A DNA stretch of 64,000 bases, taken from assembly GCF_900142125.1 (NCBI RefSeq), contig NZ_FQZT01000001.1:186001-250000 (forward strand), written 5' to 3'. The translations under genes and the position numbers were made by a program. This document shows positions 11,785 to 54,193 of this stretch, in pieces. Source of the DNA: Malonomonas rubra DSM 5091. GTDB taxonomy: Bacteria > Desulfobacterota > Desulfuromonadia > Desulfuromonadales > Geopsychrobacteraceae. Each line of letters opens with the position of its first letter. Position 1 is the first letter of the stretch. The notes below the pieces were generated by a model. That model was given only the letters and a program-made list of their open reading frames with translations, searched no databases and was not told the DNA's origin.

Positions 11785-14295
11785 TTATAACCGCGCACAA
11801 CAATTCTGCTCATCTGTCTGCAAAATTTCTTCAATAGCTATAGGTCTCCCAACAAAATACCCTTGGGCGTAATCGATCCCCAGCTTCGGCAGCATATCGA
11901 AAACTCGTTTCTCTTCAACGTATTCAGCCACAGTCTGTTTACCAAGTGCAGAGGCAACTTGGGTGATGGCACGAACCACTGCCTGATCTTCACGACTGAC
12001 GTCGACTTGCGTGATAAAGCTGCCATCCACTTTAACACTCTGGGCCGGGAACTGTTTCAAGTAACTGAATGTGCTGAAACCGGTGCCGAAATCATCCAGC
12101 GAAAAACTGCAACCAATCTTTTGCAGCTGTTCAATCATCTGCTGCGTGGCGATAACGTTTGACATACTGGCACTCTCTGTCAGCTCGAAGATTATTCGTT
12201 GCGGTTCAACCTGATGCTGCAAAAGCAGCTGTTTTACCAAAGTCACAAGCTTCTCATCGCGAAAGGCTTGTGCGGAAAGGTTGATTGCAACCTGCTGCAG
12301 GCTCGGGTACTGGCGCAATAGCTCGATGCAGCGAGAAATCACCCAATGATCAAGTAAAGGCATATCCCCCGATTCTTCCAGTGCTGGAATAAACGCAGCC
12401 GGAGACACAACTCCGAGATCGGGCAACCGCAAACGAACCAAGGCTTCGTAATAGGCCACGGAACCACTGGCAATATGCATGACCGGTTGAAAAAGCAGAA
12501 AAATCCGGTCTTCCTCAAGCGCTTGACGAAAACGGCTGGCCCAACTGATGCTGGCACGCAGATCAGCGCTTTCCCGGTCTTCTGGATGATAGCAATGCAC
12601 CATATTGCGACCACGACGTTTTGCAACATAGAGAGCCATGTCGGCCTGTTTCATATAATCGTTCGACGTATCAGCCTTACCATCGATCTCACTGATCCCG
12701 ATGCTGCAGCTGGTCGCCACCTGTTGTCCGGCATGGCTGTACCGATAACCATGCACCAGAGCACGCAATAGATCAGCCGTTTTTTTTGCATGCCCGGGCG
12801 CGCACTTGTGGACCAGAACAGCAAACTCATCGCCTCCGATGCGGCAAAGGACATCTGACTTGCGCACTCTGCTTCTCAGCAAGGAGGCGATATCCTGCAG
12901 CACGATATCGCCGTGGTTATGACCAAAAGTATCGTTGACAACCTTGAAATGGTCCAAGTCGATATAGAGCAAAGCATGCGACTCCCTGTCGCGTGCTGCG
13001 GATGCGTTCATCTGTTCGATCACTTTGTCGAAATAGTGGCGATTGTTCACTCCTGTCAGATAATCGTGCATGGCAAGAAATTCAAGTTGTTGCTGGGCCT
13101 GTTTACGCTTGGAGATATCATCCAGATAGCCGAAAAAAGTCAGCCCAGCGTCATCCTCCGAAATCGCATCCAGTTTGCATGCTAGCCAGAGAATATCTTC
13201 ATGACTGGTGCGTAGCGGAATTTCCAGCTCGCACTGATGAAGCTCTCCGGCCAGCAACCGGAATAGCTTTTTCAAGTTATTCGATTGGCGCAGCAAAATG
13301 TCTGGACCCAAATAGCTGGTCAACTTTTGTCCCAACGATGACTCGATGCTGTACCCGGTCAAACGGGTCCATGCCTGGCTGAGAAAAACAATACACCCGG
13401 CAGAATCAAGTTTCAGAATGACCGTACTCAGATTGTCAAGCAAGCGTTGGTGCTCTTCGGACACCTTGCGATATTCTTCCGTACGCTCCTGCAGTTCGTG
13501 TAGTCGTGCAGCAAACTGGGACTGGCTGACAAGATAATCTTCCCTGCAACTGGCCAACTCACAAACCTTGCGTAGCTGTTCTGCGCGAAATGGCTTGCTG
13601 ACAAAATCGACTGCCCCTTTACTGACCATCTCTTGTGCTAATTCCATTGTGCTGTGGGCTGTCATGATAACGACCGGCTGCTTCGGATCAATCCGCAGGA
13701 TAGCTTCCAGAATTTCCGGCCCGGAAATTCCCGGCAGCATAACATCAAGCAACACGAGATCATGCCGTCCTTCAAGCCACGCCGCCAATCCCGTGGTTCC
13801 ATCTGTTGCCAACTCAACTGAAAAACGGTTGCGCAGGATGCGCTTGACCAGCTCTGCGTTATCGATATTGTCTTCAACAACCAGCAACCTTGGCGAAAGA
13901 AGCCCTGTCATCGGCCCGACCAACGAGCTCTCAACCAGTTCAGGCAAGTGTGAAAGGTTGTCTGAACACAGCAGGTGGTTGATGCCGAATTCACGAGCCG
14001 TAATCCTGGTGACGCGCTCGCACCAGTTTTTTGTTACCAGGATAATAGGAACTTTGCTCTCACATCTATAAATCCCGCTGCGGATCAGACGGGTTAATCG
14101 CCAACCATCAATCTCGCCTATGTCTGCATCCATGACCACCAGACGGATCGGAACAGTTTGCAGTACCTGGATCGCTTCAAGTCCAGTTTCAGCTTCAACG
14201 ACCCGGTCCAGAGAAACTCCCAGATTACGGCAGACAGCTTGCCTTGTAGCAACATCTTCATTAACAACTAACACTTCAGAATTTGTTGATTTCAT
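11785..14295 (-). CDS. Receiver-receiver-PAS-GGDEF-EAL signalling protein
   Basis: An 836-residue cytosolic protein. Receiver 1 is about 5-115, with the phospho-acceptor Asp in VVMDADIGEIDGW but no KPF lysine at its end. Receiver 2 is about 138-255, complete: VVEDN, LLDVMLPGISG, MTAHST and SKPF. A PAS domain covers about 285-400. GGDEF (about 410-570) has RIGGDEFAVL intact. EAL (about 580-830) has YYEALVRLR, FELTESA and DDFGTGFSTFSYL intact. It may therefore make and degrade cyclic di-GMP under phosphorylation control. The ATG at 14295 has AGGG upstream; a TTG two codons earlier is less likely. The same odd double receiver occurs in the neighbouring kinase. The ThDP gene starts 73 nt downstream and may be co-transcribed. 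Confidence 0.9.
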   Translation of the reverse strand: MKSTNSEVLVVNEDVATRQAVCRNLGVSLDRVVEAETGLEAIQVLQTVPIRLVVMDADIGEIDGWRLTRLIRSGIYRCESKVPIILVTKNWCERVTRITAREFGINHLLCSDNLSHLPELVESSLVGPMTGLLSPRLLVVEDNIDNAELVKRILRNRFSVELATDGTTGLAAWLEGRHDLVLLDVMLPGISGPEILEAILRIDPKQPVVIMTAHSTMELAQEMVSKGAVDFVSKPFRAEQLRKVCELASCREDYLVSQSQFAARLHELQERTEEYRKVSEEHQRLLDNLSTVILKLDSAGCIVFLSQAWTRLTGYSIESSLGQKLTSYLGPDILLRQSNNLKKLFRLLAGELHQCELEIPLRTSHEDILWLACKLDAISEDDAGLTFFGYLDDISKRKQAQQQLEFLAMHDYLTGVNNRHYFDKVIEQMNASAARDRESHALLYIDLDHFKVVNDTFGHNHGDIVLQDIASLLRSRVRKSDVLCRIGGDEFAVLVHKCAPGHAKKTADLLRALVHGYRYSHAGQQVATSCSIGISEIDGKADTSNDYMKQADMALYVAKRRGRNMVHCYHPEDRESADLRASISWASRFRQALEEDRIFLLFQPVMHIASGSVAYYEALVRLRLPDLGVVSPAAFIPALEESGDMPLLDHWVISRCIELLRQYPSLQQVAINLSAQAFRDEKLVTLVKQLLLQHQVEPQRIIFELTESASMSNVIATQQMIEQLQKIGCSFSLDDFGTGFSTFSYLKQFPAQSVKVDGSFITQVDVSREDQAVVRAITQVASALGKQTVAEYVEEKRVFDMLPKLGIDYAQGYFVGRPIAIEEILQTDEQNCCARL

Positions 14296-28087: not shown

Positions 28088-28187
28088 GCAAATGCATAGG
28101 GATTCATCCCGTTCCCGCCCGAACGGAAACAAGAAACATCCCTTTTCGCCGTCAAGGACCTCTCTCCCCTTGACGGCGTTTTTTTTT
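28088..28187 (+). ncRNA. Predicted sigma-54-dependent small RNA, about 100 nt
   Basis: The interval runs from the predicted start after the -24/-12 promoter to the end of a strong terminator. By eye it folds into hairpin 1 (GGGA-TTCA-TCCC, 28099-28110) and hairpin 2 (CGTTC-CCGCCC-GAACG, 28110-28125, sharing one base). An A-rich single strand (28126-28146) precedes the terminator hairpin. The only ATG-led frame (28093) runs straight through the terminator and has no ribosome site, so it is probably not coding. Two C-rich loops (CCGCCC and CTCTCC) could pair with Shine-Dalgarno sequences. Three GGA triplets (AGGGA, ACGGA, AAGGA) alternatively suggest CsrA binding. It could also be a terminated leader of ptsP, 78 nt further on. 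Confidence 0.65.
28147..28187 (+). terminator. Strong Rho-independent terminator of the small RNA
   Basis: CGCCGTCAAGG and CCTTGACGGCG form a perfect 11-bp stem around a 10-nt C/U-rich loop, followed by nine Ts (28179-28187). It separates the small RNA from ptsP. Confidence 0.93.
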
Positions 28188-54091: not shown

Positions 54092-54131
54092 AAAAAAAAT
54101 CCCTGCTACGGAAGAGAAGTCGCAGCAGGGG
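54092..54131 (-). terminator. Terminator after the DASS transporter gene
   Basis: On the minus strand CCCCTGCTGC and GTAGCAGGGA pair around a purine/pyrimidine loop, followed by eight Ts (54099-54092). Confidence 0.75.
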
Positions 54132-54162
54132 AATGTCCAATGGACGAATAGAGAGAAGGTCA

Positions 54163-54193
54163 CGGCAGATGGCTCAACCCGAACCATCTGCCG
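54163..54193 (-). other. 3' hairpin next to the DASS transporter stop codon
   Basis: CGGCAGATGG and CCATCTGCCG form a perfect 10-bp stem with an 11-nt loop starting 10 nt after the stop codon. No T-run follows on the minus strand. It is more likely a message-stabilising hairpin ahead of the true terminator at 54092-54131. Confidence 0.5.

Follow-up and report, generated by a model that had tools for sequence, protein, structure and literature searches.

A putative sigma-54-driven small RNA of Malonomonas rubra and its relatives with a loop complementary to Shine-Dalgarno sites of citrate-cycle genes

The activator gene, the palindromes and the RNA unit

The window, a stretch of 64,000 nucleotides from Malonomonas rubra DSM 5091, contains a sigma-54 activator gene that is followed by a candidate small RNA gene and then by ptsP (Table 1). 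A Pfam search assigned ferredoxin, [FeFe]-hydrogenase-like, FeS, AAA+ sigma-54 activator and Fis-type HTH domains to the activator; its ATG start is our choice, and the open frame opens earlier at GTG 25509. Three hydrogenase-type cysteine motifs, searched as simple patterns, are present in 52, 49 and 49 of the activators from 55 relatives. The first cysteine motif of the domain reads HCP, its His occupying the slot of the first of two cysteines in active enzymes. The activator is regarded here as a putative H2 or redox sensor that drives the small RNA.

Table 1. Positions of the annotated features in the window
Feature	Start	End	Strand	Basis or remark
Perfect palindrome TGTGCCACCACTGGCACA, just 5' of the activator gene	25508	25525	.	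0 mismatches; putative activator site
Sigma-54 activator gene	25569	27857	+	Pfam PF02906, PF04060, PF00158, PF02954
Putative upstream activator site 1, TGTGCCAAATAATGCACA	27862	27879	.	palindrome search
Putative upstream activator site 2, TGTGCCAAACATGACACA	27893	27910	.	palindrome search
Putative upstream activator site 3, CGTGCCACAAGTGGCACA	27970	27987	.	palindrome search
Sigma-54 promoter TGGCATGCCGATTGCT, -24 GG and -12 GC	28062	28077	+	sequence
Small RNA, predicted start to end of T run	28088	28187	+	start inferred, 12 nt past the -12 C
5' hairpin, base AGGGAU/AUCCCU, with inner hairpin (loop CCGCCC, 28115-28120)	28098	28143	+	predicted fold
Terminator hairpin, covarying 11-pair stem	28147	28178	+	28147-28157 pairs with 28168-28178
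Seed UCUCUCC in the terminator loop, complement of GGAGAGA	28161	28167	+	conservation and folds
ptsP (GAF and PEP-protein phosphotransferase)	28265	30595	+	Pfam; downstream neighbour, outside the RNA unit

A protein search for the activator yielded 80 loci, and the RNA could be placed in 56 of them, which together with the window form the set of 57 loci used throughout. L025 was omitted, as its activator match ends at residue 725, where the contig ends; L091 comes from the same isolate. Loci L080-L090 and L092-L100 were excluded because they match the activator only in part. Two loci, L021 and L077, were placed manually, and the promoter of L037 was corrected. Loci L066-L068 contain no such RNA and stand outside the 57.

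The gap of 204 nt between the activator gene and the RNA holds three palindromes near TGTGCCA-N4-TGGCACA. Palindromes of this kind were found in all 57 gaps, 133 in total, compared with 0.7 per shuffled set. The perfect copy in front of the activator gene points to putative autoregulation, and 50 of the 53 loci examined have a palindrome with at most two mismatches close to where the activator gene starts. In 56 of 57 loci a -24/-12 element with a score of 13 or higher out of 15 precedes the terminator, compared with 4 of 1140 shuffled regions; L021 has GT rather than GC at the -12 position. In sequence, the locus therefore has both marks of sigma-54-dependent RNA genes, namely a -24/-12 promoter and upstream activator sites, and the RNA would be transcribed from that promoter.

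The gene ptsP begins 78 nt 3' of the T run and is also the next gene in 41 of the 55 relatives whose downstream sequence extends for 400 nt or more, as would fit a leader or attenuator whose terminator governs read-through into ptsP. However, the RNA is intact in the other 14 relatives, where ptsP does not follow. Among the 12 of these that were inspected, several have a yebC-like gene downstream and others only opposite-strand or unclear frames. A role as ptsP leader is accordingly considered highly improbable.

Predicted fold, loop conservation and GGA triplets

The RNA of 100 nt folds at -34.9 kcal/mol (z -4.97), and none of 200 dinucleotide shuffles folded as well. Its minimum-energy fold consists of two main hairpins. 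The features singled out in an earlier note, which are the CCGCCC loop, the terminator loop ACCTCTCTCC (28158-28167) and three GGA triplets (28100, 28125 and 28156), all lie where it had placed them, and each triplet is indeed preceded by an A two bases upstream. The terminator stem is well supported by covariation: 7 of its 11 pairs show changes on both sides, the stem is 95.5% paired across 51 distinct rows, and 54 double-change cells were counted compared with a mean of 15.5 in shuffled and 1-5 in slid controls. The core UCUCUCC of the loop is kept in 56 of 57 loci, with L036 as the sole exception, and 369 of 392 seed bases are unpaired in the predicted folds.

The earlier note had proposed that both C-rich loops could act as antisense loops. 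This proposal is supported for the terminator loop, with its near-constant UCUCUCC and the conserved complementary sites at citrate-cycle genes described below, but not for the CCGCCC hairpin, as its sequence GUUCCCGCCCGAAC was found in only 16 of 57 loci; CCGCCC was rejected as a second general seed on the same count. Within these 16 loci the inner hairpin around GUUCCCGCCCGAAC (28109-28126) is unchanged despite variable flanks, and it may represent a second, lineage-specific contact.

The note had also likened the GGA triplets to CsrA sites, which would make this a titrating RNA that binds CsrA and frees the mRNA targets of that protein. The genome of M. rubra encodes CsrA, and GGA is enriched, with 2.40 triplets per RNA compared with 0.75 in mononucleotide shuffles (1.56 compared with 0.14 for A-N-GGA). 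In addition, 53 of 57 loci have a 5' GGGA, but the folds predict it to be paired. In titrating RNAs of the CsrB/RsmZ type many GGA triplets are displayed in loops, whereas the RNAs studied here carry from 1 to 4 each, and the folds predicted for the 57 loci place 353 of 411 GGA bases in pairs; in the minimum-energy fold of the window RNA all three triplets have their GG in stems. Stems that pair with UCC themselves generate GGA. Conservation across homologues, which the note had suggested as a check, separates the terminator loop from both the CCGCCC loop and the loop-side GGA: the latter (28156) is present in 43 loci and absent from 14, in 13 of which UCUCUCC is intact. The triplet at 28125 is part of the lineage-specific inner hairpin. 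The case for CsrA sites is thus weak, and we consider CsrA titration very unlikely.

Putative citrate-cycle target sites and the RNAs that accompany them

In the M. rubra genome the 8-base complement GGAGAGAG occurs 0-12 nt before an ATG in 39 places, compared with 7 for the reversed pattern. All 39 were read; two pairs proved to be the same place, and 17 precede genes that we judged plausible. Five of these 17 are the genes for citrate synthase (gltA), aconitase B (acnB) and malate dehydrogenase (mdh), the monomeric isocitrate dehydrogenase gene icd (identified by Pfam), and an acetyl-CoA hydrolase/CoA-transferase-like gene known from reading its sequence alone. The 7-base pattern GGAGAGA is noisier, with 131 places compared with 67 for its reverse, and among the matches listed (100 of 131) inspection of those with loci and of 20 further ATG places gave no firm target. 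The same listed matches include GGAGAGA before [NiFe]-hydrogenase large subunit-like and formate dehydrogenase-like genes (L378 and L375), which could be chance occurrences.

A terminator covariance model, R1, was run against 136 genomes of the order and matched 99 of them at E <= 0.01, of which 88 fell below 1e-5; some of the 11 weaker matches are other terminators. The M. rubra genome has one match. Among the 22 genomes in which R1 gave no strong match, 20 also lack the activator at E <= 1e-100.

Orthologues of gltA, mdh and acnB were taken from 31-33 chosen genomes, and GGAGAGA was scored as a target site when located at most 20 nt upstream of the start. Rows were dropped for gltA in G020 and G042 (no match at threshold), in the second G015 copy and in the G136 fragment (no locus); for mdh in four genomes without a match and in the G136 fragment; and for acnB in G010 and G043 (no match) and in four loci without a start. 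Among R1-bearing genomes, GGAGAGA overlaps the Shine-Dalgarno site of gltA in 21 of 22 cases, of mdh in 17 of 19 and of acnB in 16 of 20, which gives 54 of 61 cases in total and leaves 7 without it. The background frequency was 4 of 275 ORFs of at least 250 aa from the activator loci, a set that includes many mutual orthologues and was scored more permissively, with a start anywhere within the first 60 codons being counted. Duplexes between the loop and its targets range from -15.2 to -17.2 kcal/mol. For gltA itself the value is -15.6, compared with a mean of -6.8 and a best value of -16.3 among 500 shuffles of the gltA region; the best shuffle thus exceeds the real duplex, and a 7-base seed that overlaps a Shine-Dalgarno site is easily found.

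The expectation that target sites vanish whenever the R1 RNA is lost had to be rejected, as G012, G014, G016, G019 and G031 keep them. Since sites were kept in these R1-negative genomes, a second RNA model (R2) was built, on three sequences. The second RNA, which was reached through weak R1 matches, has two hairpins with CU-rich loops. At E < 1e-12 it was found in ten genomes, none of which has an R1 match below 1e-5, and eight of the ten carry the exact UCUCUCC. In six of the ten it lies directly 3' of a lactate-oxidation-type Fe-S protein-like gene, while one small gene stands between them in G025. GGAGAGA is present in 11 of 11 cases from the four R1-negative genomes that R2 matches strongly (G012, G014, G016 and G031) and in 2 of 2 from G019, where the R2 match is weak (E 0.003). 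The second RNA thus explains the retention of sites in four of the five R1-negative genomes tested, the R2 match of the fifth, G019, being weak.

Genomes that match neither model provide the opposite case. G010 and G042 have GGAGAGA in 0 of 4 cases and use GGAGG-type sites instead. This control pair is a small sample, and G042 may not lack such an RNA, because a terminator-like hairpin with a UCUCUCC loop (L317; G042:C114, about 11815-11840, + strand) was seen in that genome, which has neither target sites nor a match to either RNA model. In Geobacter-type genomes GGAGAGA is found in 0 of 6 cases, with gltA keeping GGAGAG (6 of 7 bases) and with GGAGG-type sites at mdh and acnB.

These distributions bear on a simpler explanation, in which the target match is merely a favoured strong Shine-Dalgarno site and the loop is kept for terminator efficiency or protein binding. 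GGAG is the ribosome-pairing core, the sites persist in genomes without the R1 RNA, and the Geobacter-type gltA retains GGAGAG, all of which would be expected if that were so. On the other hand, only those 4 of the 275 background ORFs have GGAGAGA near a start, G010, G042 and the Geobacter-type mdh and acnB genes use GGAGG-type sites, and a differently built RNA bears the same kind of loop. We therefore consider the simpler explanation unlikely.

The reading that we favour, with a probability of roughly 0.78 on comparative sequence evidence, is a sigma-54-driven, trans-acting anti-Shine-Dalgarno small RNA that represses the citrate cycle. The activator with its [FeFe]-hydrogenase-like domain would bind the TGTGCCA-N4-TGGCACA palindromes and turn on the -24/-12 promoter. 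The resulting RNA of about 100 nt would end in the terminator hairpin and display UCUCUCC in its loop, which would pair with GGAGAGA at the Shine-Dalgarno site of the gltA, acnB and mdh mRNAs and block ribosome entry; in M. rubra the loop would also pair with icd and the CoA-transferase-like gene. Because the near-invariant loop fits the ribosome sites of several citrate-cycle genes, the RNA probably slows the cycle. The genome encodes Hfq, which may take part. Two genomes count against this reading: G039 and G119 (L229 and L230) keep an activator 43% identical to that of the window as well as ptsP, and their gap is short and holds no such RNA.

Moderate R2 matches were also observed in R1-bearing genomes. 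For instance, the M. rubra genome has one with UCUCUCC after a lactate-oxidation-type Fe-S gene (L334; C25:237793-237862, - strand, E 1.8e-9). Further R2-type RNAs with UCUCUCC-like and CCUCC-like loops were noted at L322-L332, L335, L337, L338, L340, L342 and L347, and the strongest of the R2 matches come from genomes that R1 does not match strongly. The weak R2 matches are numerous; most are general terminators, and some are the R1 RNA itself. One such weak match in the window (54094-54166, - strand, E 2.7e-4) is probably an ordinary terminator.

Comparison with the Geobacter locus and with known small RNAs

At the Geobacteraceae loci L066-L068, the activator gene is followed by one or two palindromes of the same kind, a -24/-12-like element and, in place of the RNA, a gene for a protein of 59-61 aa; the L067 protein shows weak similarity to ribbon-helix-helix proteins, below the cut-off. 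According to published work, GSU3364 (HgtR) of Geobacter sulfurreducens is a repressor of citrate synthase (PMC7894505, PMC7726332) that is induced by hydrogen (PMC7894505), and an activator gene precedes GSU3364, whose promoter is predicted to be of the RpoN type (PMC2725144). HgtR was not detected in the proteomes of PMC7894505. Judging from its position, the protein of L066-L068 is probably HgtR.

The window locus resembles that of HgtR both in its slot, behind an activator gene and a predicted RpoN promoter, and in its predicted job of lowering citrate synthase with H2 as donor. In contrast, HgtR is a protein repressor and the window locus specifies an RNA. If the Geobacter locus is a guide, hydrogen or a reduced state would act as the signal, and acetate oxidation would be slowed while another donor supplies electrons. 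The same slot behind the same sensor may be filled by a protein repressor in one case and by an RNA in the other.

A broader proposal, to which we give somewhat better than even odds, is that a single regulatory locus keeps its sensor, promoter type and palindrome code while its output can be exchanged. In Geobacteraceae this output would be a small repressor protein, probably HgtR, and in Desulfuromonadales it would be a small RNA acting on the same pathway at the level of translation. In genomes without the locus, the second RNA, often 3' of a lactate-oxidation-type gene, would provide the same kind of loop while the target sites stay. Given this shared loop and the retained sites, the seed would act as a common code with several inputs. 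The proposed circuit is testable, and through it environmental metal- and sulfur-reducers could stop oxidizing acetate in response to hydrogen or redox state.

The closest functional parallel is found in Neisseria meningitidis. PMC5362039 reports that the small RNAs NmsRA and NmsRB repress citrate-cycle enzymes, including that encoded by gltA, through UC-rich anti-Shine-Dalgarno motifs, one of which lies in a hairpin loop, and that these two siblings have three stem-loops and are under stringent-response control, an acnB fusion being unaffected. The window RNA shares the single-stranded UC-rich motif complementary to citrate-cycle Shine-Dalgarno sites. Unlike the NmsR pair, it has two hairpins and is represented by a single R1 copy, its seed lies inside the terminator loop itself, and it stands behind a sigma-54 promoter beside a hydrogenase-like activator. 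It was not filed as an NmsR RNA because promoter, structure and copy number differ.

Short RNAs with CU-rich or C-rich loops also include LhrC and anti-hemB. A search of the window against Rfam gave no match at the gathering score and sub-threshold matches only. Homology was rejected for both LhrC (RF00616; 22.3 bits, gathering score 110) and anti-hemB (RF02837; 20.3 bits, gathering score 49.5), and there is no evidence of descent from either. Small RNAs have been reported in Geobacter, and none like the window RNA appears among them in the accessible part of PMC6013743. Searches of open-licence literature, a body that leaves most subscription journals outside, gave no report of such a circuit.

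UCUCUCC was also searched as a pattern close to T runs; it gave 8 places in the M. rubra genome compared with 14 for the reversed control, and its matches elsewhere are mostly chance. In G035, which lacks the activator, a terminator with the loop AACUCUCUCC immediately follows a porin-like gene (L261; G035:C47:10155-10201, - strand). Finally, a third RNA with a CUCUCUCC loop lies directly after a multihaem cytochrome-like gene in G099 and G101 (L336 and L341).
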